The notes below the pieces were generated by a model that was given only the letters and a program-made list of their open reading frames with translations, was not told the origin of the DNA and made no database searches. Of a DNA stretch of 64,000 nucleotides, positions 47,961 through 64,000 are shown piece by piece (the stretch's first letter is position 1; the number at the start of each line of letters is the position of its first letter). Where the stretch lies: contig NZ_JAKQZA010000003.1 of the NCBI RefSeq assembly GCF_023008165.1, positions 372,001 through 436,000 of the forward strand. Reading direction: 5' to 3'. Both the position numbers and the translations under genes were made by a program. This DNA comes from Kordiimonas laminariae (lineage in GTDB: Bacteria; Pseudomonadota; Alphaproteobacteria; Sphingomonadales; Kordiimonadaceae).

Positions 47961-51598
<3,638 letters not shown>

Positions 51599-51613
51599 TC
51601 TGCCTCAGATTTT

Positions 51614-51712
51614 TGTCGGATGACACATAAGTTGTCGGATGGCACATAAGTTGTCGGATGGCACATAAGTTTCGACAAATGACGCATAAAGTTCGACAAT
51701 GCGACACATAAG
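51614..51712. repeat. Five tandem repeats forming one end of the Tn7-like transposon
   Basis: Three 19-bp copies, 51614-51632, 51633-51651 and 51652-51670, follow TGTCGGATGGCACATAAGT, with the first copy having A for the second G of GG. Two related 21-bp copies, 51671-51691 and 51692-51712, begin TTCGACAA and end ACGCATAAAG or ACACATAAG. The first copy starts with the canonical TGT of this transposon group. Closely packed end repeats are TnsB-binding sites in known Tn7-like elements; that function is inferred here. The five bases before are ATTTT. Confidence 0.85.
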
Positions 51713-51723
51713 TTTCGATAATA

Positions 51724-51758
51724 GGCCCAGCGTTTCCGAGCGTTTGGGCCTTTTTTTT
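51724..51758 (+). terminator. Terminator just inside the transposon end
   Basis: GGCCCA and TGGGCC arms around a 15-base loop are followed by eight T. It lies 11 bases after the last end repeat. It would stop transcription coming from gyrB and may shield the cargo. Confidence 0.85.
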
Positions 51759-51897: not shown

Positions 51898-53943
51898 GTG
51901 ACCCAGCTAGTGACACTTAGATACTTACCTTCTTTAAAAAGGATTCAGATTCAAAATTATTCGCTATATCCAAAGGCTTTGGATCTAGAGTATCATTTCA
52001 TTGATGGTGTCAATTTGATCATTGGTGGAAATGGTGTTGGAAAAACAACATTCCTCAACATAATCAAATATGCGCTTATCGGATTGTATAAAAAAGAAAT
52101 CAATGTTCGACGTCGCGAGTATCAGGGTAAGGAAAAACGCTATGATAAGCGTAGTAATCTTCCATATGATTTCTTTGAAGCTCGCGTAGATCCGACTGTA
52201 GATTATAATGAGAAAGCATCCGTCACTCTTGAGTTCGCACTAGGCGATAGTTTAGTTTCTGTAACAAGAGATTTATGTACTCCAAAAGTGACTGCTGCTG
52301 CATTAAAATCTGGCGATGAATGGAAACCTATTGCCGGATTGAGCCTCCAACAAAGTGACTATGATGCAGCATTTGCTGATGAAAAGATGCTTGCAAAAGC
52401 AGAAGAGTCGCTTCAAGGCCAATACGAAAAGACTGTCGCTCAACTTTCAGGTTTTGACTACTTTGATAGCTTGATCTTCATCGTCAATGAAGTTCTATTT
52501 TTTAATGAAAGTCGTAAGACAATCATGTGGGATAAGGACATTCAAAAAGATCTCTCTAGCAAGTTCCTAATTGATCCCGAAAAGGATCATCTGAAAGGCG
52601 AATATGAGCGACACGCAAAGTATCGAAATAGTTTAGGTCGCCATAAATCCGAAGAAGGAAAAGCCATCCGAAGGATGTTCTCTTCTCTGCAAGACTCTGA
52701 GGACAGAAATAAAAATTATGTGAAACTTTCCGAAGATTTTGAGAACAAAAAAACAGAGGTAGAAACACTATTTAAACAACTTGAATCTCTTCAAGCAGAA
52801 CGCCGTTTACTCGAGTCAAAAGTAAAATCAGCTCACAGCACTAAGAACTCCTTAACAGCAAATATCGAAGATCTTGAAAAGAAAAAAAATAAAGAAGAAC
52901 GCCAGATATTTCTGGGTGTCTTTGAGCGCTTAACCCCTAAATATCAAGAATATTTGGAGTTTCTTAAATCTACGGACGATTGCCCGTTGTGCAATCAAGG
53001 CATCACGCAAGACTTTAAGATAAAGATCGTCTCAAATGAGCATAAATGCATGCTCTGCGAGAACGACATTCGCAAAGCGGATAAGTCAAGCATGAAACTC
53101 GATAAAATTAACAAAGAAATAGACGGCAATCTAAATTCTCTGCGCTCTCAAGAACGGAAAATTATCGAACTAGAAGGCCTTTTAGAAAAAATTGACAAAC
53201 GCTTTAGCACTATCTCTTCCAAGAGAAACAAAGCGATCGTTGATGCGAGAGCACTAGAATATGAATTCCAACGCCACCAAACAGATATTGTAAAAAAGAC
53301 CGACACTGAGTTTTTGGTCATGCGTAAGAGGCTAGACGAACTTGATAAAGAAAAAGAAGAGAACTATCAGCTAGCAAAAGAAGCACAAAACAAAGCAAAT
53401 GAGATTGCAGAAGAAATTGATGAGCAACTGAATGACCGAAGAGCGGAGCTTTCAAGAATATTTGATACATTTAGTGGCCTTTTCTTAGGTCAACCAAGCA
53501 CTCTAGTCTACGAAGCGCCAGAAAGAAACGGTGAGAGAAGATACTATCCTCAAATTAACGGCGTAGTTCGGTATGAGGAAGAAGCCCTTTCGGAATCTCA
53601 ACGTTTTTTCATTGACCAATCGTTTCGCATGAGCCTCATAAGGCTTCTTAATGATCAAGCATCGTTTTTTATGTGCGAAACCCCTGACAGCAGCCTTGAT
53701 ATTTCTTACGAACAGAATGCTGCAAAGATTTTTATGAGGTATCTAGAACGTCCAAACAACTTGATCCTGACATCCAACCTAAATAACAGTGAGTTTTTAG
53801 ACTATCTAATAAGCCAAGCTGCCAACATTGATTGCCTGAACTTGCTTGAGATAGGCAGACAATCAGGTGTTCAAGCGACCAGTGACCAGTTGATTGCTGC
53901 GTCTAGAAAAGTGAAAAGGAAGATCCATGAACGACACCAATAA
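51898..53943 (+). CDS. SMC/Rad50-like ABC ATPase of a putative three-component system
   Basis: This 681-residue ATPase has Walker A GGNGVGKTT (residues 43-51) and a coiled-coil of about 270-520 with two CxxC pairs (Cys362/365 and Cys384/387). The ABC signature is ALSESQ (563-568) and the Walker B/D-loop CETPDSSLD (593-601). The paired CxxC motifs recall a Rad50 zinc hook or a zinc ribbon in the coil. The start is GTG at 51898 or 51910; neither has a clear Shine-Dalgarno. It overlaps the next gene by 17 bases. The layout matches ATPases of ABC-three-component conflict systems; the assignment is by arrangement, not by a search. Confidence 0.82.
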   Translation: MTQLVTLRYLPSLKRIQIQNYSLYPKALDLEYHFIDGVNLIIGGNGVGKTTFLNIIKYALIGLYKKEINVRRREYQGKEKRYDKRSNLPYDFFEARVDPTVDYNEKASVTLEFALGDSLVSVTRDLCTPKVTAAALKSGDEWKPIAGLSLQQSDYDAAFADEKMLAKAEESLQGQYEKTVAQLSGFDYFDSLIFIVNEVLFFNESRKTIMWDKDIQKDLSSKFLIDPEKDHLKGEYERHAKYRNSLGRHKSEEGKAIRRMFSSLQDSEDRNKNYVKLSEDFENKKTEVETLFKQLESLQAERRLLESKVKSAHSTKNSLTANIEDLEKKKNKEERQIFLGVFERLTPKYQEYLEFLKSTDDCPLCNQGITQDFKIKIVSNEHKCMLCENDIRKADKSSMKLDKINKEIDGNLNSLRSQERKIIELEGLLEKIDKRFSTISSKRNKAIVDARALEYEFQRHQTDIVKKTDTEFLVMRKRLDELDKEKEENYQLAKEAQNKANEIAEEIDEQLNDRRAELSRIFDTFSGLFLGQPSTLVYEAPERNGERRYYPQINGVVRYEEEALSESQRFFIDQSFRMSLIRLLNDQASFFMCETPDSSLDISYEQNAAKIFMRYLERPNNLILTSNLNNSEFLDYLISQAANIDCLNLLEIGRQSGVQATSDQLIAASRKVKRKIHERHQ

Positions 53944-54553
53944 ATATGTCGTATATGCGGATATACTCTCAATTTTTCGATCAGCAGATGCGCTAGACTG
54001 GAAATCTCTACGGAAGTCTTCTGTTCATCGAGTCATGTATCTTGCCTCAGTATTGTTTGGTTTCAAATTCCCAGAAAAAGATAACATATTTTCAAAATAC
54101 AACTTTTCGATTGAAAAGTACGTAGGCCCTTTCAGTTCAGATATCGAAAAGGGTGTAAATTTTCTTTCTAAAGATGAGTATTTAATCCCCTCTGGAGAAG
54201 AAGAACCCCTATACTCTCTAGGAACCAATGCCGCAGATCAGATCTTTAAGGAAGCTCTGGTGCAAGCGAGGGATGAATGGCTCAAATTGATCGTTTCAAT
54301 TTTAAGTCTCTACGGAGAAAATAAGATTTATGACTTCATTTTCCGCGACAAAGAATATCAAGATGCCATCAAGTCAAACAAAACCACCGGGTTTGATATT
54401 GGCCCTGAAAATAGGACGATTCAGTTCCTAAAAGGCTTCCAGGCAGCCTTTGAAGAGACGCTTCCTCAACACAGTGAAAATGTGGACGCTACCCAATATT
54501 TGGAACTCTATTTCGAGTATGTCTTCAGTAAAATTCTTAAAAGAGAGAATTAA
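53927..54553 (+). CDS. Middle protein of the putative ABC three-component system
   Basis: I do not recognise this 208-residue protein from a known family. It is soluble, acidic, mostly helical and rich in aromatic residues. The N-terminal half has a possible winged-helix layout (SSVHRVMYLASVLFG then DIEKGVNFLSKDEYLI). It overlaps the ATPase gene by 17 bases and its TAA overlaps the next ATG by one base, so three genes are translated as one unit. Position and size fit a middle component, which in ABC-three-component systems links ATPase and effector. Confidence 0.68.
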   Translation: MNDTNKYVVYADILSIFRSADALDWKSLRKSSVHRVMYLASVLFGFKFPEKDNIFSKYNFSIEKYVGPFSSDIEKGVNFLSKDEYLIPSGEEEPLYSLGTNAADQIFKEALVQARDEWLKLIVSILSLYGENKIYDFIFRDKEYQDAIKSNKTTGFDIGPENRTIQFLKGFQAAFEETLPQHSENVDATQYLELYFEYVFSKILKREN

Positions 54554-55605
54554 TGTCCGAACTTGATGATGTGAAGAAGCTATTCAAGGCACATAAAGAC
54601 GACTTTGCTCTCCTGGCTGATACAGAACGCAATGAGATTGCGAACTCTTTCCCACTTAAAAAATTAGTTAATATAGCACTGCCCGCTTTCTGGGGAGCAA
54701 GAGTCAACCAAGGAACACACTTTGCCTTTTTTTTAGCTGAAGATGAACTCGATAAACTTGCACTTACTGAGGCGACTACGGCGCTTGATACGTGTATTTC
54801 AGAGAGTTTAAAGACTCATAACTGCATATATTTGGCTCCCGATTTCAGCATTGTGGCATCCAAGCACCTCAACTTAACCCGAACACTACTGGAATCGCTA
54901 TCAGAAAGCGGTCAGATCGCTATCTTTTTTGGAGAGACTGGCATTGACATTGTAGTTAAAGGAAAATTCATTACCAATCATAATTTCTTTTACAATGAAC
55001 TTGATCGTGCCAAGTATAAAAGGAATTTTAGTATGGACCAGCTACCTGAATGCTTGAAGGAATATGAAAGGTATATAAACCAGCCGGGAGTAAATGAAGC
55101 ATTCTTCTGTGATAGGTCCTTAAAAAAGACCCTCTCCGATTGTCCTAAGAACCTATTAAAATATCAGGCTGAAAAAACCCTGAGGGACAATCTTTTAGAA
55201 TTCTTGAACCTAAACACTCAATATACCTTCCTGAAAGAAGCCGAGCTTAATAACCAACGCGAACTCGACCTATACACTGAAGCTGATGGGAAGCATTATA
55301 TCCTTGAAGTCAAATGGATGGGTAGATCTATTAAATCCGATAATAGTGGTGTTTCCAGCACCAATTATACAAACGCGACAATTAGAAATGGTGTGATCCA
55401 AACCTTAGAATATATTCGAGAGGTCATTAAAGAAATGAACCACAATCTTCACTGTGGTCTTCTTTGTGTTTTCGATGTCCGTGATGAAAAAACAGAGATT
55501 GACTATGACGATTTCAAGTTTTTAGACGAGCAAAAAGACCTAAAGCCGTATTACGATCAACATTTTAAGGCATTAAATAAAATCAACTTAGATTGTATTG
55601 CTTAG
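54553..55605 (+). CDS. PD-(D/E)xK nuclease-like effector of the putative three-component system
   Basis: This 350-residue protein has a PD-(D/E)xK nuclease pattern in its C-terminal part: Glu231, Asp239 in RELDLY, Glu252 and Lys254 in LEVKW, and Gln283 in the next helix. The N-terminal 200 residues are unrecognised. It is the last gene of the operon. It overlaps the convergent methyltransferase stop by four bases. A restriction or effector nuclease is likely, and the nuclease target cannot be told. Confidence 0.7.
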   Translation: MSELDDVKKLFKAHKDDFALLADTERNEIANSFPLKKLVNIALPAFWGARVNQGTHFAFFLAEDELDKLALTEATTALDTCISESLKTHNCIYLAPDFSIVASKHLNLTRTLLESLSESGQIAIFFGETGIDIVVKGKFITNHNFFYNELDRAKYKRNFSMDQLPECLKEYERYINQPGVNEAFFCDRSLKKTLSDCPKNLLKYQAEKTLRDNLLEFLNLNTQYTFLKEAELNNQRELDLYTEADGKHYILEVKWMGRSIKSDNSGVSSTNYTNATIRNGVIQTLEYIREVIKEMNHNLHCGLLCVFDVRDEKTEIDYDDFKFLDEQKDLKPYYDQHFKALNKINLDCIA

Positions 55606-56945
55606 GAAGTCATTACAATGACACTTTCTCTTAACTTTCCAACCTGCTTCTTTTGCTGACTGCTAGGTTCAAGTTTCCTGGCTTCGCGAATTTCCTCCAC
55701 GTGAAAGCCATGTTGATCGGCAATTTCAGATACAATCTCGTCGACATCAACTTTAACACCATAATATGCAGAGTTTGCCACATTGAAGAAAACCTTTTTA
55801 GACGGCGCCATTTTGGCTTTCATTTTCTTAAACAGCAGGTCCATGTCCAAGAAATATGCTTTAATCATATTAGGAATATCCTCATTCCATAGATCTGCAT
55901 CCACAGCGTCTAACGCCCGCAAAGACTCCTGCAATTTTGACACTTCAGGAGTCTCTACCTCACCCAACTTCACTTGAACATGCGAGCGTAGTGTTCTTCT
56001 TCTCAATGCTCTAATATCTTCATATGAACTGACTAGGCCAAGCATCCATAACTCGGCCATATAGATGTCTGTATAATCTCGGGAATTCAGGTAAGGGGGA
56101 GAAGTAATCACTAAATCAATGCTATCTTCCGCCAAAACATCAATAGATGATCGAACATCTCCGTAATGGCAATCAAATCGATTCTGGACGAGGTATTCGC
56201 TTTTCTCTATCTGAGCAATATCATCTTTCATCTTTTCAAGTTTGGCTAGAAAGCGTTCATGCACTTCACGACGGGACATTTTTGTTTCTTGCCATTTCTT
56301 TTTGTAAGAAAGACACTTTCCATTTCTGTATACATTGCTTACATCAAGTAGAATTGATGCAAGTGCTACATTGAAAAGAGACCTATATTTCGCATCATCT
56401 GTACAAGAGATAGTATATTTGACATCCAATATACCATTCATGACCCCCTGGTCGAAAACCCACTTTTTAAGTCCCTTTCTAGGCTGAAAAGTTTTCGCCA
56501 ATGGAGGAGACATATATTGTCGGATCGGTAGAAGTGCCCCTCGCAAAAAACCAGACATACGCGTAAGCTCTCGTTCAAAAGAACTCAGATGATATTGTGT
56601 ATTAAGTTTTGTGGACGCAAGCAAATGCATGAATGGGCTAACTTCAAATGATGAACATTTTATGCCCATTGCCTGTAGTTCAACCGGAGTTGTTCCGCTA
56701 CCAGCGAAAGGATCAAGCACATGAGTTGGCTCATAATCTAACTCATTAATAATGCTCTCTATAAATTCTCTAGAGTAACCCTCAACAAACGGATACCATT
56801 GATGAATGAATGCAGTTTTATTTTTATTAAACTGCATTATTGCTTCATATATATCTGTGTAATCTACCACCGGAGGTGGCGAGTACTCAACAGTAGCTTC
56901 CATATATCTATCAACGATACTATTTTGCTTAGAGAAAATTTTCAA
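55602..56945 (-). CDS. DNA methyltransferase (amino-methylating type)
   Basis: This 447-residue SAM-dependent enzyme should methylate adenine-N6 or cytosine-N4. The SAM motif DPFAGSGTT is at residues 78-86 and the catalytic TSPPY at 281-285, so motif I precedes motif IV with a long region between. Its specificity cannot be predicted. It converges with the three-gene operon and overlaps its last gene by four bases, which suggests it was acquired together with that operon and may protect host DNA from the nuclease. It could instead be an orphan methylase. The upstream 148 bases are shared with a small ORF on the other strand. Confidence 0.87.
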   Translation of the reverse strand: MKIFSKQNSIVDRYMEATVEYSPPPVVDYTDIYEAIMQFNKNKTAFIHQWYPFVEGYSREFIESIINELDYEPTHVLDPFAGSGTTPVELQAMGIKCSSFEVSPFMHLLASTKLNTQYHLSSFERELTRMSGFLRGALLPIRQYMSPPLAKTFQPRKGLKKWVFDQGVMNGILDVKYTISCTDDAKYRSLFNVALASILLDVSNVYRNGKCLSYKKKWQETKMSRREVHERFLAKLEKMKDDIAQIEKSEYLVQNRFDCHYGDVRSSIDVLAEDSIDLVITSPPYLNSRDYTDIYMAELWMLGLVSSYEDIRALRRRTLRSHVQVKLGEVETPEVSKLQESLRALDAVDADLWNEDIPNMIKAYFLDMDLLFKKMKAKMAPSKKVFFNVANSAYYGVKVDVDEIVSEIADQHGFHVEEIREARKLEPSSQQKKQVGKLRESVIVMTS

Positions 56946-57350: not shown

Positions 57351-58334
57351 TCAAAATTCAACTAACTCTGGAATACCCTGTTCAACAACACGAGCAACAA
57401 CATGATGTTGCCTGTCAGGCATTGGAACACCCTGAGGAACTAGCTTCAACTCTATAGAACCAGTTTCCTCATCAAACGCAATAAGCCCAGCATTGTTCAG
57501 CCGTAAGTTTTCAAAATCTTCTAGAAGCCGCTGAACCATACGTTCATGCTTCGGTACCACAAGCCAGTAATGGCGAAAGAAACTGCACGCTAGCGCAATA
57601 CTAGAAACTGTCAGTATATTGCCTGGGGATGAATGCGCTCCGGACAAATGCTTAAAATCAAATCCATCAACCCACTTGGGGCTGTAGCCATCAAGCTCAA
57701 AAGCTACCGCTTGAGGGCGCACATATTTGAACTTATATTGGCCGGTATAAAAACGGCATGTTTCACTAGCCGTAACCTGCTTTAACTGAGCTTCTATAGC
57801 TACAGAGGCATGCTGGATAAATTCTTTGACAGCAATCTTACCAGCTTTACGGGAAAAGGATGTAGCATTCACAAAGTCCCTTTTACCGAGTCGAGGATCA
57901 TTACCATGGTTGCTAACAGCCGAATGACTAGCCTGTAGGTAAATTTCTCTGATATCACCGGATGATTTTTGTCCCTGCACAAATTCAGGAAGTAATTTTC
58001 TTACGTCATCAGGTTTTAAATCATACAGCCTTTTGAATATCTCTATTGTAGGGAAATTAAATTTAGCGTCAGTAGATTTCTTCAGCAGTTCAAAATCTGA
58101 GATTTCCGAGCTAATTTTTTGAAGAAAATCATATGTGGCACACATACGGCGGATAACGCCAACACTATAACCTGTTGTTTCTGCGACCTTATCTAGCCAA
58201 GCCGACGGTGTGGAAAAACTTTGCTGCCAATACCCACTCTCCTGAATAAAGCGAACAATGCCAGCTACTTCCTGCCAATCCTTCTTGATTTTCTTGGCAT
58301 CTTTTAACGCAGATACAGCCTCAGAAACATCCAT
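57351..58334 (-). CDS. Unrecognised 327-residue protein divergent from tnsA
   Basis: I do not recognise this protein. The N-terminal 120 residues are helical with an HTH-like stretch (TTGYSVGVIRRMCATYDFL, about residues 53-71). The C-terminal part, from about residue 160, is mixed and basic, with Arg/Lys and many aromatics. An overall layout of DNA-binding plus another domain is possible. The ATG at 58334 is preferred to the TTG at 58337. It is divergent from tnsA, with 144 bases of dyad-rich DNA between, so it might regulate transposition or help choose the target, or it might just be cargo. Confidence 0.7.
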   Translation of the reverse strand: MDVSEAVSALKDAKKIKKDWQEVAGIVRFIQESGYWQQSFSTPSAWLDKVAETTGYSVGVIRRMCATYDFLQKISSEISDFELLKKSTDAKFNFPTIEIFKRLYDLKPDDVRKLLPEFVQGQKSSGDIREIYLQASHSAVSNHGNDPRLGKRDFVNATSFSRKAGKIAVKEFIQHASVAIEAQLKQVTASETCRFYTGQYKFKYVRPQAVAFELDGYSPKWVDGFDFKHLSGAHSSPGNILTVSSIALACSFFRHYWLVVPKHERMVQRLLEDFENLRLNNAGLIAFDEETGSIELKLVPQGVPMPDRQHHVVARVVEQGIPELVEF

Positions 58335-58384
58335 CAAAAGTGCCTTTTCCTGATTTTCACAAACATGATCTTGTATGCAAAAAC

Positions 58385-58478: not shown

Positions 58479-59105
58479 ATGTACACTCCAGCAAGAAAAG
58501 TCATCACCCGAGGCCCAACAAGATTGGTGGGTAAGTTTCCTAGCCGAAAGAACGCTCGCCATGTGCATTGGGAGTCTCAATTGGAAAGAGACAGAATAAT
58601 GATGCTGGAATTTCATAAGGACGTTCTCAGCTATGCCGAGCAGCCAAAAACATTCCAACTGATAGTTAATGGCCAACAAACCCGTTACACACCTGATTTC
58701 CTGGTACAGCTAACCACAGGGCAAATCTACGAAGAGATTAAGCCTTCAAAACAGATCGCCAAATATGCAGCTGTATTCGACGCTTTCGAAGCAACCCTTG
58801 CTGATGAAGGAACAGCTTTCGCTGTACTCACAGAAAATGAAATCCGCATAGAACCGTTCCTGCCTAATATCCGGTATTTGCTTAAATTTCGGTCATACCA
58901 ACCACCTGCAAGCATGTTGGAGGATTGCATCCAACTTGCCAGAGGTAATCCACAGCTACCTCTATCCAAATACGAGAGGCTCTTTGCCGCTTCTTCAATA
59001 CCCAACTTTATGGCTTATTGGCTTCTATCAGAGCACTATTTCAGCTGCGACCTCCACACTCCTCTTACGCCAGCATCCCTCCTTACTCTGAAAGGACATC
59101 AATAA
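58479..59105 (+). CDS. tnsA: TnsA-like transposon endonuclease
   Basis: TnsA cuts the 5' ends of the transposon so that it moves by cut-and-paste. This 208-residue protein has the PD-(D/E)xK pattern of the TnsA nuclease: Glu in HWESQLERD (Glu32 or Glu36), Asp73 in YTPDF, and Glu86/Lys88 in YEEIKPSK. The C-terminal half is shorter than Tn7 TnsA. Its TAA overlaps the tnsB ATG by one base (TAATG), so translation is coupled. The upstream region has several dyads. Confidence 0.88.
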   Translation: MYTPARKVITRGPTRLVGKFPSRKNARHVHWESQLERDRIMMLEFHKDVLSYAEQPKTFQLIVNGQQTRYTPDFLVQLTTGQIYEEIKPSKQIAKYAAVFDAFEATLADEGTAFAVLTENEIRIEPFLPNIRYLLKFRSYQPPASMLEDCIQLARGNPQLPLSKYERLFAASSIPNFMAYWLLSEHYFSCDLHTPLTPASLLTLKGHQ

Positions 59106-61134
59106 TGCCTGCGATAAACCTTACATCTTCAACACCCCTCAAAATCAACGGTGTACATCACACATTGATCGGTAAACCTGATCCGAAAAAACTACGCCTC
59201 CTTCGAACCAACGATCAGGAGTTCATTGAAACCAACCTATTCGATTTGATGGAGAAGATTACCAATGGTGAAGCAGAAATATTGTTTCTCGAAGAGACAG
59301 ACAGAGACAAGAAACGCCGTATTAAAGACAGGCTTCGGCAGGAAATATCAGACCTGAAGCCTGCAGCCCGCGAGAGCTTGGACCGTAAGCTTGCTTATGT
59401 AAAAACACTAATCAACTATATGCCGGTTCCCAAAACCAAAGAGCGCATGCAGCCCATTATTCTAAAGGCTGCCAAGAAGATTAACGACGATAACCCTCCA
59501 CACTTCAGTACGCTTCTCAATTGGTATAATGCGTTTATTGCTGCCAAGAGTGATCCGCGTGCACTCATCGATTCACACGGTAAAAAGGGAAACCAAAACA
59601 AGCGGCTGGCTCCGGAGGTTTACGATATCATCACTGCCGCTATAGAAGCACGTTATCTTTGTGGCCCACACGGTTGTGTAGAAGCCGTTTATGATCGTGT
59701 AAAAATAAACATCGCTAAAGCCAATGAGTTTCGAAGGGGCCCTGAGAAGCTAGAGACGCCAAACGTCCGGACAATCTACCGTGAAATCGAGAAAATAGAC
59801 CCATATCTCAGGATAAAGAAGCGGCACGGCAAAGCTGCGGCTGAGCGTCTATTCGCGAATGTACAAAAGGCGCCTATTGCCACAAGGGTTCTTGAGCGCG
59901 TTGAGATTGACCATACAGTTTTAAATCTATTTCTCATTGATTTGGAAACAGGCCTTGCCATCGGTAGACCTACACTCACCATGGCTATAGATGCCTACTC
60001 AAGAATGCCAACGGGCTTTTATGTAGGTTTTGAACCTGCCGGTTGGTCATCAGTTTTACACTGCTTAAGACACTCAGTGCTACCCAAGGGACCGACACTC
60101 GCGCAATACCCGGACATAAAAACGATTGGCCCGTTGCAGGTACATGCGAGACTCTGATTGTTGATAACGGACGGGAGTTTCATTCCGATGATTTAGATCT
60201 CGCCTGCCAACAACTCAATATCGATATCGAGTATGCTCCCAGAGCCAAGCCTTGGTACAAAGGCAAAATCGAGCGGTTTTTCCACACACTGGATCTAGGG
60301 CTAACATCTCAAGCCAAAGGCCGAACGATTGCCAAGTTTCTTTCCAAACTACTGCCTCAAGAAGAATATGACCCTAAAGAAGATGCGGTCGTAGACCTGG
60401 CAACATTTGTTGAGGTGTTAAATCAGTGGATAGTGGATGTTTATGCTCAAAAATATCATAGAGAATTATCGGGTATTCCTATTCAGCGCTGGAACGAGGG
60501 AATGGAAACAAATCCTCTGATCAAAATACCATCAAGTTCACAAGACCTTCTTATCACACTGTCCAAAACAGAAAGCCGTAAAATCCATACCTATGGCATT
60601 GAACTCAATAGCTTAAGATACAACAGCCCGGCACTAGGCGCCCTACGCATGGATTTATATAAAGGCAATAAAAACCCTGACGCTCTCATAAAACTCGATC
60701 CATCGGACATTTCCCATATTCATGTGTACGATCCGAATGAAGAAATATACATCAAGGTGCCGGCCCTTGATATGGATTATGCGCGCAGTCTAGGCCTGTG
60801 GCATCATAAGATCATTAAGAAATACGCTGCTAAACTCAAAGACGCATCCGACCGGGATGTCAGTTTAGCGGAAGCTCGAGAGCAAATTCGAGACAAGCTT
60901 TCAGGCATTCAAAGAAGTGCTCAAAAGGTTTCTCACCAAAAGAAAATTGCTCGTTCAAAAGGCATTGGAAGTAACCAATACCAATCCTTCGAGACAGCAT
61001 CAGTTGAGCCGCCGGCACCTGAACCACTCAGCGAAACAGAAGCAGACGGTTTCACTGAACAATTCCAAGACGACCATGACTTTGAAGATGATTATGAATG
61101 GGGGATCTCATCCAATGAAAACTTCCCGGAATAG
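59105..61134 (+). CDS. tnsB: TnsB-like DDE transposase, interrupted by a -1 frameshift
   Basis: TnsB joins the 3' ends of the transposon to target DNA. The first frame runs from 59105 to a stop at 60155-60157; the second frame, offset by -1, continues to 61134. Joining them at the AAAAA run (60118-60122), reading AAA (60119-60121) then AAC from 60121, gives a 676-residue protein. Catalytic residues Asp269 (EIDHT) lie before the shift and Asp354 (VDNG) and Glu390 (KGKIERF) after it, a DD(35)E triad. Each frame alone lacks part of the triad. Explanations are programmed frameshifting, a one-A deletion, or a sequencing error. The end overlaps tnsC by 20 bases. Confidence 0.88.
60118..60122 (+). 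other. A5 run at the tnsB frame change
   Basis: The codons around the run are ATA AAA ACG in the first frame. A -1 slip on AAA would re-pair with AAA perfectly and continue AAC GAT TGG, which matches the family. The stop of the first frame follows about 35 bases later. I see no strong hairpin just downstream. A missing A would produce the same picture. Confidence 0.65.
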
Positions 61135-62155
61135 CACCCGTGACGGCCTGAAACCTGACGCCTATACGGCCATGCAGCAGTTGGTCATTGAACACCCGCA
61201 AATAAAACGGACAATTGCCCGTATTGATGAATATAAAGAAGCCTCGAAAGGATCTCGAGAGCCAAACTGTATGCTTATCCTTGGCCGACCAGGTGTAGGT
61301 AAAACAACGATCAAAGACCTTTATACAGCAAAATATGCTATAGAAAAAACTGATACAGGCACCAAAGTGCCAGTGCTGTCAGCAACGATTCCTGTTCCTG
61401 CCACTATGATGACATTAGTCACCGCTCTGCTAACCAAAATTGGTGATCCCCTCGCTGTAAAAGGTACACTCCACCAGAAAACACTGAGGCTTTACCGGCT
61501 TCTCAAAGAATGTGAAACAGAAATGATTCTGCTGGATGAGTTTCATCATTTCATCGATTGCGACAGTGAAAAAATCCTCAACTCAGTTTCAAACTGGCTG
61601 AAGAATTTAATCAGTGAGACAAAGGTTCCAGTCACACTTATTGGTCTACCGAAATCGTTGAGGGTATTGTTTGCCAATTCACAACTTGAAAGACGCTTTT
61701 CTGATATTTTACATATCTCGCCTATCAAATACCCTTCCGCTAACAATAAAGACTTCAAGCATCTACTCAAAATCATTCAAGAGCATGCAATACTTAAGTT
61801 CGACATGGACCTAACATCAGAGGACATGCTGCCCCGTATGTATGCTGCTACCAATGGGTATCTATCACCGCTCATGCTTCTTGTTCGAATGGTCACTTTT
61901 TCCTGCAAAAAACAAGGCAAAAAAACAATCGAGCTTAAGGATATGGCAGAGTTTCATCATAGAAAAATCTCTGCTATGTCAAAGGGAAACCCTAATCTCC
62001 GAACAAGCAGGTACGAAAAAAACCCATTCAGCCTGGATTGGACACCGGCAGACGCAGTTAAGCCCTCCTCTAAATCTCAAAAGCCTGCAGCAAAACGCAA
62101 ACCTCCAATGTCAAAAGCTGAAGCAAGTAGAGAGATAAGGGAAATCTATAGCTAG
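61115..62155 (+). CDS. tnsC: TnsC/TniB-like AAA+ ATPase
   Basis: TnsC is the ATP-dependent matchmaker that links target selection to the transposase. This 346-residue protein has Walker A GRPGVGKTT (about residues 57-65) and Walker B MILLDEFHHF (about 137-146). The start at ATG 61115 overlaps tnsB by 20 bases and follows a GGGGGA stretch. The length is near that of TniB, shorter than Tn7 TnsC. The C-terminal tail is Lys/Ser/Pro-rich. tniQ starts eight bases after the stop, so tnsA-tnsB-tnsC-tniQ are one operon. Confidence 0.93.
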   Translation: MKTSRNSTRDGLKPDAYTAMQQLVIEHPQIKRTIARIDEYKEASKGSREPNCMLILGRPGVGKTTIKDLYTAKYAIEKTDTGTKVPVLSATIPVPATMMTLVTALLTKIGDPLAVKGTLHQKTLRLYRLLKECETEMILLDEFHHFIDCDSEKILNSVSNWLKNLISETKVPVTLIGLPKSLRVLFANSQLERRFSDILHISPIKYPSANNKDFKHLLKIIQEHAILKFDMDLTSEDMLPRMYAATNGYLSPLMLLVRMVTFSCKKQGKKTIELKDMAEFHHRKISAMSKGNPNLRTSRYEKNPFSLDWTPADAVKPSSKSQKPAAKRKPPMSKAEASREIREIYS

Positions 62156-62163
62156 CTAACCCC

Positions 62164-63447
62164 ATGCCACTATTGATTACACCAAGTATAAGACAGCATG
62201 AAAGCCTGTTCGGCTATCTCACAAGGGTAGCCGAGCATAATGGATACGAGGATTTCACCTGGATACTTGGGCTGGCAAACATACGGGCGAGGAGCAACTT
62301 TACTGAAAGCGATTTTGCCAAGTTGGCCATCGTTACCACAACCCCAACAATCAAACTCTTTGACAGTGCACATTGGCTATCAAAGCAAGGCATGAAGAGA
62401 TATTATTTTTCTCTGTATTCTCCTAAACTTTGCCCCGAGTGCTTAAAGCATAACTCTTATCGTCACGTATCATGGGATTATAGCCTGATAACTTGCTGCC
62501 CAGATCACGGTTGTTTGTTGGTTGACACCTGCCCGAACTGCAAAACATCCATTAGCTGGAAAAACTGTGGCATTACGCATTGCAAAACATGCGAACAGTC
62601 TTTCACAGCACTTAACCCTAAGCCCTGTAAACCGAGAATGATTGCATTCACTAGGCAGTTGATCAGTCACATTCATATACCGACCAAGCAGATATCATAT
62701 TTAGCAAAAACACCGCCGCTGTCCTTATCTGATATTATGAAACTAGTTTTGTTTCTCGGTTCACATGCATGCTTCAAGAAAACTCATGGTACCGGGTACT
62801 GGCTCTGCTCGAAACTTACAAACGCCGAAATGCATCAGCTCATCTCAGTGGCACTGAATGTCCTAACTTGCTGGCCCGAAAACTTCCTCGCCCTATTGAA
62901 CCAAATTGAAAACACCCGTCAAGACACAGGGCTAGAGAAGCGGTTGGGCAGCTTTTATGAAACCTGGCATAAACAATTCCGTAAACCCCAGTTTGAGTTC
63001 CTTAAGGAAGCTCTCGCATCATACGCACAAAACAATTGGCAAGCAGGCTTCCTCAGCAACAAGAATAAACGCCTATCAGAAAACCGGCTTCACTCTTCAA
63101 AATACATGACCTTGGCAGAAACAAAGAAAACTCTGAAATTGAGTTATAGGAAGATATTGGAGTTAATTGATCACGGCCAACTAACTGCCATATGCTCTGA
63201 CGCGAAAAGCAGAACATTGAGGCTGATCACCAAGGTAAGTATTCAAGGCTACCTTGAAGGTCAAAAGGATATTATTACCGCGAAAGAAATGAGATCTATT
63301 TTAGGCATTGGAGAAAGACGAGCTAACAAACTCATTAAAGGTGGTAAAATTGTTCCACTACCAAACAGACCACTAAATAGATCTAGGCGATATGTTTTTT
63401 GCCGAAAAGCAATCTCAAGATTAGCCAGAGAAATACAACTAAGCTAA
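62164..63447 (+). CDS. tniQ: TniQ-family target-selection protein
   Basis: TniQ/TnsD proteins choose the insertion site. This 427-residue protein has an N-terminal TniQ domain with zinc-binding residues Cys90, Cys93, Cys112, His115 and a second group Cys123, Cys126, Cys140, Cys143. The C-terminal part (about 315-427) contains two helix-turn-helix-like segments (TLAETKKTLKLSYRKIL and TAKEMRSILGIGERRANKL), each of excisionase/MerR type, suited to sequence-specific DNA binding. It would be the candidate for recognition of the gyrB end. Convergent with the HigA-type gene, nine bases overlap. Confidence 0.92.
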   Translation: MPLLITPSIRQHESLFGYLTRVAEHNGYEDFTWILGLANIRARSNFTESDFAKLAIVTTTPTIKLFDSAHWLSKQGMKRYYFSLYSPKLCPECLKHNSYRHVSWDYSLITCCPDHGCLLVDTCPNCKTSISWKNCGITHCKTCEQSFTALNPKPCKPRMIAFTRQLISHIHIPTKQISYLAKTPPLSLSDIMKLVLFLGSHACFKKTHGTGYWLCSKLTNAEMHQLISVALNVLTCWPENFLALLNQIENTRQDTGLEKRLGSFYETWHKQFRKPQFEFLKEALASYAQNNWQAGFLSNKNKRLSENRLHSSKYMTLAETKKTLKLSYRKILELIDHGQLTAICSDAKSRTLRLITKVSIQGYLEGQKDIITAKEMRSILGIGERRANKLIKGGKIVPLPNRPLNRSRRYVFCRKAISRLAREIQLS

Positions 63448-63795
63448 AAGCGTATCAGCGGGAATGCCCCACTCTTTATGCAATATACGCGCTTCGGAAA
63501 TTGACAGGGAACGACTACCATTAAGTATATCCTCAGGCTTCTTCACATCCAAGATCATAGCTAAATCATTGTGATCGAAGCCTTTTTGCTCCATAACAAA
63601 TTCAATAGCTGTAACGGGATCAACAATACCCATAGAGAAGTGTTTTTCCTCGTAGGCTTCTACCAATATGCTGAGAATCTCAAACTCGTCATTTTCTCGA
63701 TCATCTGACATTTCATCCATCAGAACGGCAATACGAACGATTGCCCTTCGATAGTCATATACATCATTAATTGGTTTAATCTGAGCCATGAACAT
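63439..63795 (-). CDS. HigA-type HTH regulator/antitoxin, no adjacent toxin
   Basis: This 118-residue protein matches HigA-type antitoxins and related HTH regulators: an N-terminal helical part (AYEEKHFSMGIVDPVTAIEFVMEQ, cut here for length), then a HTH (GFDHNDLAMILDVKKPEDILNG) and a tail. The HTH is at about residues 74-96. No toxin gene lies within the 55 bases upstream before the next stop codon. A 12-base dyad lies just upstream. It may be an orphan or a remnant of a toxin-antitoxin pair. The start could also be the Met at residue 3. Confidence 0.75.
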   Translation of the reverse strand: MFMAQIKPINDVYDYRRAIVRIAVLMDEMSDDRENDEFEILSILVEAYEEKHFSMGIVDPVTAIEFVMEQKGFDHNDLAMILDVKKPEDILNGSRSLSISEARILHKEWGIPADTLLA

Positions 63796-63811: not shown

Positions 63812-63850
63812 TTCATATTCGCCATAGCTCTGCTAAATATTAAACGTGAA

Positions 63851-64000
63851 TCACGCCTTAAGGATAGAACGATATTTCCTACTGCATGGAATATCCTGAT
63901 TGTCAGTCATTGTTAGGTTTAAACCACCTTCACCATCTGATTGTATATCTTGAATCTCATCTAAATTTACAATGTAAGACCTATGAACACGAGCAAAATT
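63851..64000 (-). CDS. C-terminus of a LytTR DNA-binding protein, cut by window edge
   Basis: The minus strand is open from the right edge to a TGA at 63851-63853, giving 49 residues. They read FARVHRSYIVNLDEI and then MTDNQDIPCSRKYRS, which match the end of a LytTR DNA-binding domain. The N-terminal part lies outside the window, so whether it is a response regulator or a membrane-bound regulator is unknown. It is on the same strand as the HigA-type gene, 55 bases upstream of it. It may be a host gene or cargo. Confidence 0.85.
   Translation of the reverse strand, partial: NFARVHRSYIVNLDEIQDIQSDGEGGLNLTMTDNQDIPCSRKYRSILKA

Follow-up and report, generated by a model that had tools for sequence, protein, structure and literature searches.

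On the evidence of sequence comparisons, gyrB almost certainly serves as the attachment site of a group of Tn7-like elements, and the tandem repeats that follow gyrB in Kordiimonas laminariae (genome G000) very probably form the gyrB-proximal end of one such transposon, from a lineage for which the gyrB 3' end is the attachment site. We analysed a 64,000-nt stretch of this genome, referred to here as the window, in which intact gyrB is followed by a short spacer, the repeats and a hairpin:

49160..51598, + strand: intact gyrB, an ORF of 812 aa with its TAA stop at 51596-51598
51599..51613, no strand: spacer of 15 bp that separates the element from the gyrB stop and ends in the 5 bp ATTTT
51614..51721, + strand: gyrB-proximal transposon end with five overlapping sites of the TnsB type, spaced 19-22 bp apart
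51724..51758, + strand: hairpin resembling a Rho-independent terminator (GGCCCAGCG..GGGCC plus a T-run), just inside the end

A sequence-only reading of this DNA had placed five tandem end repeats 15 bases past the gyrB stop, and the coordinates confirm it: 51614 is the first base of the leading repeat (TGTCGGATGACACATAAGTT) and the stop ends at 51598, which leaves a gap of 15 bases. The count of five holds in so far as five sites score by position weight (18.7-24.2, with weights built including these sites), but only three are exact or near-exact, with exact 17-mers at 51614, 51633 and 51652, and the two copies at about 51680 and 51702 are diverged. Because the orthologous proximal end in the close relative G013, whose gyrB is 95% identical to the window gyrB over its last 1 kb of nucleotides, has three sites, the five are best counted as three plus two extra 19-bp units; a normal end has three, and two of the window sites come from recent 19-bp tandem duplications. 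Across the whole G000 genome the exact motif occurs at this site only (three forward, zero reverse), and a reversed-pattern control gave 0 matches. The ATTTT at the end of the spacer, presumed to be the insertion pentamer of the window element, is also found at element junctions in G013, and the hairpin recurs in the proximal ends of G013 elements. Similar hairpins were seen by eye after the ends in G017, G1000 and G1113.

Insertions within the genus were counted using an exact pattern in which the CRCATAA repeat follows the 3' end of gyrB. An element end lies 5-23 bp past gyrB in 7 of 20 Kordiimonas genomes (G000, G001, G005, G011, G012, G013 and G017), sites in other genomes are empty, and the reversed control of the pattern gave 0 matches in the 20 genomes. 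A weaker solo motif is present at gyrB in G016. A comparison of empty with filled sites, which the sequence-only reading had proposed as a check, came out in its favour: in G008 and G004, with empty sites, a conserved gene cluster directly follows gyrB, and in G017 the same cluster is displaced by about 8.8-8.9 kb and a repeat resembling an element end lies 11 bp past gyrB. Kordiimonas marina (G012; NZ_JAINDF010000005) carries an intact tnsABC-tniQ element after gyrB, encoding TnsA (226 aa), TnsB (670 aa), TnsC (377 aa) and TniQ (629 aa). The element begins 13 bp past the gyrB stop, ends about 33.6 kb further on and has ACATG on both flanks; a second element lies immediately downstream, its first bases overlapping the duplicated pentamer. 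In G013, five end-bounded cargo units are arranged head-to-tail behind gyrB (C1:6.5-66 kb), with end-to-end junctions reading ..CCCAACA-ATTTT-GTCGG.., and a search of this array for tns genes found none; the units are either remnants or units moved in trans. In G001, the tns contig and the gyrB contig both terminate in repeats, which fits a single location at which the assembly was broken. Overlapping sites make up the gyrB-proximal ends and spaced sites the distal ends. The tandem arrays in G013, G012 and apparently G001 and G1090 point to repeated insertion over time, which bears on target immunity, and by these comparisons gyrB sites are polymorphic and accept tandem insertions. A type II secretion gene cluster, 28-70% identical between the two genomes and apparently cargo, lies within the gyrB island of G012 and G013.

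The repeats could instead be a host element, regulatory or MITE-like, that sits by gyrB and has the tns genes as a coincidental neighbour, and G013, G017 and G016, with gyrB repeats and no tns genes nearby, speak for this. We find it barely credible, since repeats of this family bracket the tns operon of G012 as inverted ends and the 5-bp duplication there matches, G013 has several junctions at which ends abut, and the geometry holds in other genera, whose repeats differ in sequence. Repeats standing without transposon genes had been named beforehand as evidence against gyrB as the attachment site and do, taken literally, occur in G013 and G017; as the ends there, single or in pairs, have cargo between or beside them, occupy the same position and fit tandem insertions or remnants, they do not weaken the claim and were not counted against it.

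An order-wide scan had returned Kordiimonas only, apart from a weak match in G063 and a chance match in G026; the genus-only site that this implied was corrected by a phylum-wide TniQ search. A TniQ profile (G012, G001 and the window) was run against 398 Pseudomonadota genomes and gave 14 strong matches, including G000, and gyrB was then located in nine of these 14 genomes. In five other genera (G822, G1090, G792, G1113 and G1000), tniQ lies on the gyrB strand, 12-23 kb downstream of that gene, and the proximal ends start 5, 11, 3, 3 and 7 bp past the gyrB stop, respectively; by a rough estimate that assumes random placement, the chance of five co-locations with gyrB in nine is ~2e-11. The end repeats of these five differ from those of Kordiimonas. 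Perfect 5-bp duplications flank the elements of G1090 (ATTTT), G792 (GATGT) and G1113 (GAGTC), the flanking pentamers of G822 agree at 4 of 5 positions, and the distal end of the G1000 element was sought and not found. Inverted asymmetric ends with several TnsB sites and terminal TGT/ACA are seen in G013, G012, G792, G1113 and G1090, and at the window proximal end. A TniQ scan of GTDB contigs gave three loci, K. marina among them, and plasmid relatives, just 21-27% identical, gave no attachment information.

Altogether, gyrB-adjacent ends occur in 12 genomes from at least six genera, 3-23 bp past the stop and in a fixed orientation. The proposal that the gyrB 3' end is the attachment site is thus supported, as is the expectation of repeated independent insertions at the same position; the expected 5-bp duplication is borne out by the G012, G1090, G792 and G1113 elements and is missing at the window copy. 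A passive hot spot behind gyrB, where intergenic DNA is safe and gyrB is not what the elements recognise, would account for the many kinds of cargo gathered there and for the several element ends without transposase genes. It is nevertheless very unlikely, given that insertion occurs so close to the stop and in one orientation, also in genera with different end sequences, and that relatives lacking the C-terminal module of TniQ described below mostly go elsewhere. We infer that the 3' end of gyrB is the recognition region of the site.

Further into the window, the repeats are followed by cargo and a set of transposition genes:

51898..53943, + strand: SMC/Rad50-like ATPase, cargo (AAA_23, E 1.6e-9; best PADLOC match LmuB (Lamassu), E 9e-17)
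53927..54553, + strand: 208-aa cargo protein overlapping the ATPase gene; no family match
54553..55605, + strand: 350-aa cargo protein, its C-terminus PD-(D/E)xK nuclease-like by inspection only; no family match
55602..56945, - strand: type II DNA methyltransferase, cargo (N6_N4_Mtase, E 1.6e-11; MTase_II, E 8e-59)
57351..58337, - strand: conserved 328-aa gene, divergent from tnsA (G012 and G001 alignments); no family match
58479..59105, + strand: tnsA (PF08722, E 5e-11)
59105..61134, + strand: tnsB, split by a frameshift (Mu-transpos_C, E 1.5e-8; tblastn with G012 TnsB)
60917..62155, + strand: tnsC, a TniB-type ATPase (PF05621, E 1e-30)
62164..63447, + strand: tniQ/tnsD, 427 aa (PF06527, E 4e-14; HTH_17, E 4e-8)
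63439..63795, - strand: PD-Lambda-2_B-like small protein (PADLOC, E 6e-26)
63843..64000, no strand: beginning of a stretch colinear with G013 (95-96%) that is left over from one or more older elements

The tnsA, tnsB, tnsC and tniQ genes, at 58.5-63.4 kb, are transcribed away from gyrB. Against the TnsA-like NCBIfam the window TnsA reaches E 4e-21, a score under that family's cut-off. The tnsB frameshift lies near an A-run at about 60110-60125 and leaves ORFs at 59018-60157 and 60043-61134; the gene is unbroken in G012 and G001, the full-length G012 copy having rve and Mu-transpos_C domains, and the frameshift could instead be a sequencing error. In the window TniQ, the TniQ domain is followed by HTH_17 matches in two stretches, and by alignment the protein lacks a C-terminal module of ~200 aa present in the G012 and G001 homologues; a search for this module in the 30 kb downstream of the window gyrB did not find it. 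With a frameshifted tnsB and a TniQ that has lost its C-terminal module, the window copy is probably immobile, and we hold there to be a good probability that it is inactive. Its cargo is defence-like, or phage-defence-like, with an LmuB-like ATPase, two partners and a type II methyltransferase. The genes at 51898-55605 resemble a three-gene Lamassu-like cassette, an LmuB-like ATPase with two proteins lacking family matches. The 328-aa gene, which may have an accessory transposition or regulatory role, is also present at the corresponding position of the G012 and G001 elements, and remnants of it lie just inside other gyrB-side ends (G005, G011 and the second element of G012); its protein model is poor (pLDDT 61) and a fold search gave nothing reliable.

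Candidate distal ends lie outside the window, at about 67.5, 72.28-72.36 and 75.3 kb when its numbering is continued. The clear terminus at 72.36 kb is flanked by ATACC, compared with ATTTT on the left, so that no 5-bp target duplication surrounds the window's own element and, given this mismatch, its distal end is uncertain. Most likely, an insertion at gyrB was followed by deletion and decay. Compatible with homing to gyrB, as a sub-hypothesis of it, is a chimeric origin, in which a deletion fused the element that the window tns genes belong to with an older one, so that the present unit is not a single 20.7-kb transposon. We lean towards this origin: homology to G013 begins abruptly at 63843 with TniQ truncated just upstream, the two flanks differ, and there are several fossil distal ends (67.5, 72.3 and 75.3 kb). 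The comparison would, however, look identical if it were G013 that had lost the tns part by deletion.

Site choice among the relatives mostly follows the C-terminal part of TniQ, and most of the matches that reach the C-terminus are at gyrB, those in G822, G1090, G792 and G1113 among them. The last ~200 residues are common to Kordiimonas (G012 and G001) and to G792, G1113 and G1090 (E 1e-10 to 1e-24), the G822 TniQ matches the module weakly, and the module was not found at comparable E in tRNA-located or other relatives. In G651, G717, G1084 and G1087 the TniQ match ends at about residue 484 and none of the four lies near gyrB; by eye, the G651 element starts within about 10 bp of the 3' end of a tRNA gene. 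There are two exceptions: the TniQ of G1000, located at gyrB, ends early, and G815 has a long related TniQ on a separate contig and an empty flank at its own gyrB, the attachment site of its element having been sought and not found. The appearance of related elements at unrelated sites had been set out in advance as an argument against gyrB as the site; in the six Kordiimonas genomes scanned whole, nearly all repeat copies fall inside the gyrB island (with a few exceptions in G005), and the closest relatives away from gyrB carry TniQs that lack the shared C-terminus. In G1070 (C1:639.5-646 kb), a tns operon with a small and a long TniQ starts about 110 bp past parE, repeats follow immediately on the stop of parE, and the long TniQ is weakly similar through its length.

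The C-terminus of the long TniQ is likely to be what reads gyrB. It had been suggested that two extra HTH-like segments of the window TniQ read this DNA. The HTH_17 stretches are indeed present, but the protein is truncated and probably cannot target gyrB; since it lacks the C-terminal module, the two HTH segments cannot be taken on their own as a demonstrated reader of gyrB, and the missing module is the better candidate. The structure model of TniQ is poor (mean pLDDT 57) and a fold search returned nothing reliable. With its backbone not resolved and its branches long, the TniQ tree does not separate a single from a repeated origin of gyrB targeting. Tentatively, and with more doubt than belief, we consider a broader picture in which TnsD recognises the B-subunit genes of type II topoisomerases through a C-terminal HTH module, with related gyrB and parE lineages and a target switched between the paralogues, gyrB being a widespread, undescribed site across Pseudomonadota.

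Targeting of gyrB might also be guided by RNA, as in I-F3 CRISPR-associated transposons. The TnsB profile best matches the TnsB of PseCAST and Tn6677 (E 1e-93 or better), and I-F3 elements home with special guides (PMC11406308). An RNA guide is extremely improbable here, as none of the ten element ORFs of the window is a cas gene and a long HTH-bearing TniQ is present. The G000 element shares no exact match of >=12 nt with the last 400 bp of gyrB, and the G012 element none of >=14 nt; with the elements lacking a gyrB-matching stretch, a guide to gyrB was rejected.

The mechanism we propose relies on a protein reader. A long TnsD-type TniQ would bind the 3' coding end of gyrB through its C-terminal HTH array and, once bound, would recruit TnsC and then TnsAB. 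Insertion would take place just downstream, leaving gyrB whole, and the element end would supply a replacement terminator, each element thereby presumably bringing its own terminator for gyrB.

Tn7 carries tnsA, tnsB, tnsC and TnsD, has overlapping TnsB sites at its target-side end and generates a 5-bp duplication; it inserts just past the 3' end of glmS in a fixed orientation, so that the essential gene stays intact. Its right end consists of overlapping sites and its left end of spaced sites. The gyrB elements resemble Tn7 in tnsABC with TniQ/TnsD, overlapping proximal sites, the 5-bp duplication, the intact essential gene and the fixed orientation, and their gyrB-proximal and distal ends match its right and left ends. 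They differ in that the target is gyrB instead of glmS (attTn7) and in their end repeats, and a search for tnsE within the window found none. Tn7 shows target immunity (PMC11406308), whereas tandem arrays of related ends are common in the gyrB elements. The TnsB is closest to I-F3 TnsB among solved structures, and parE is the published TnsD site of one I-F3 branch, for example in Parashewanella (PMC11406308, PMC12719977, PMC10201428). G792 has a small TniQ and a long TnsD, as does that branch, and parE, which the G1070 element adjoins, is a paralogue of gyrB; unlike I-F3 elements, those described here target gyrB, the Kordiimonas ones have a single TniQ, and the window element gave no cas8/5, cas7 or cas6 match. 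Tn6022 uses TnsF and interrupts comM (PMC10293859). It is likewise a Tn7-like element whose selector is dedicated to a single gene, but in the gyrB elements only TniQ is long, and the target gene stays uninterrupted. By inspection, G013 contains a separate tns operon beside a broken comM-like gene (C1:373-377 kb), as in Tn6022.

The protein-guided Tn7-like sites in the literature consulted are few, namely glmS, tRNA genes, comM, yhiN and parE. Gyrase is not named in the main text of either PMC10293859 or PMC8649781, and a literature search covering the main texts of freely available papers retrieved none that describes gyrB as a site for Tn7-like elements; supplementary tables may list gyrB. 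Its use in several Pseudomonadota genera adds another essential gene to the protein-guided sites, and homing to gyrB explains genomic islands adjoining this gene. Readers of gyrB, parE and tRNA genes built on a shared TniQ core offer a comparison for how TnsD specificity changes, which bears on the building of protein-guided insertion tools, and the tandem arrays at gyrB make the limits of target immunity testable.
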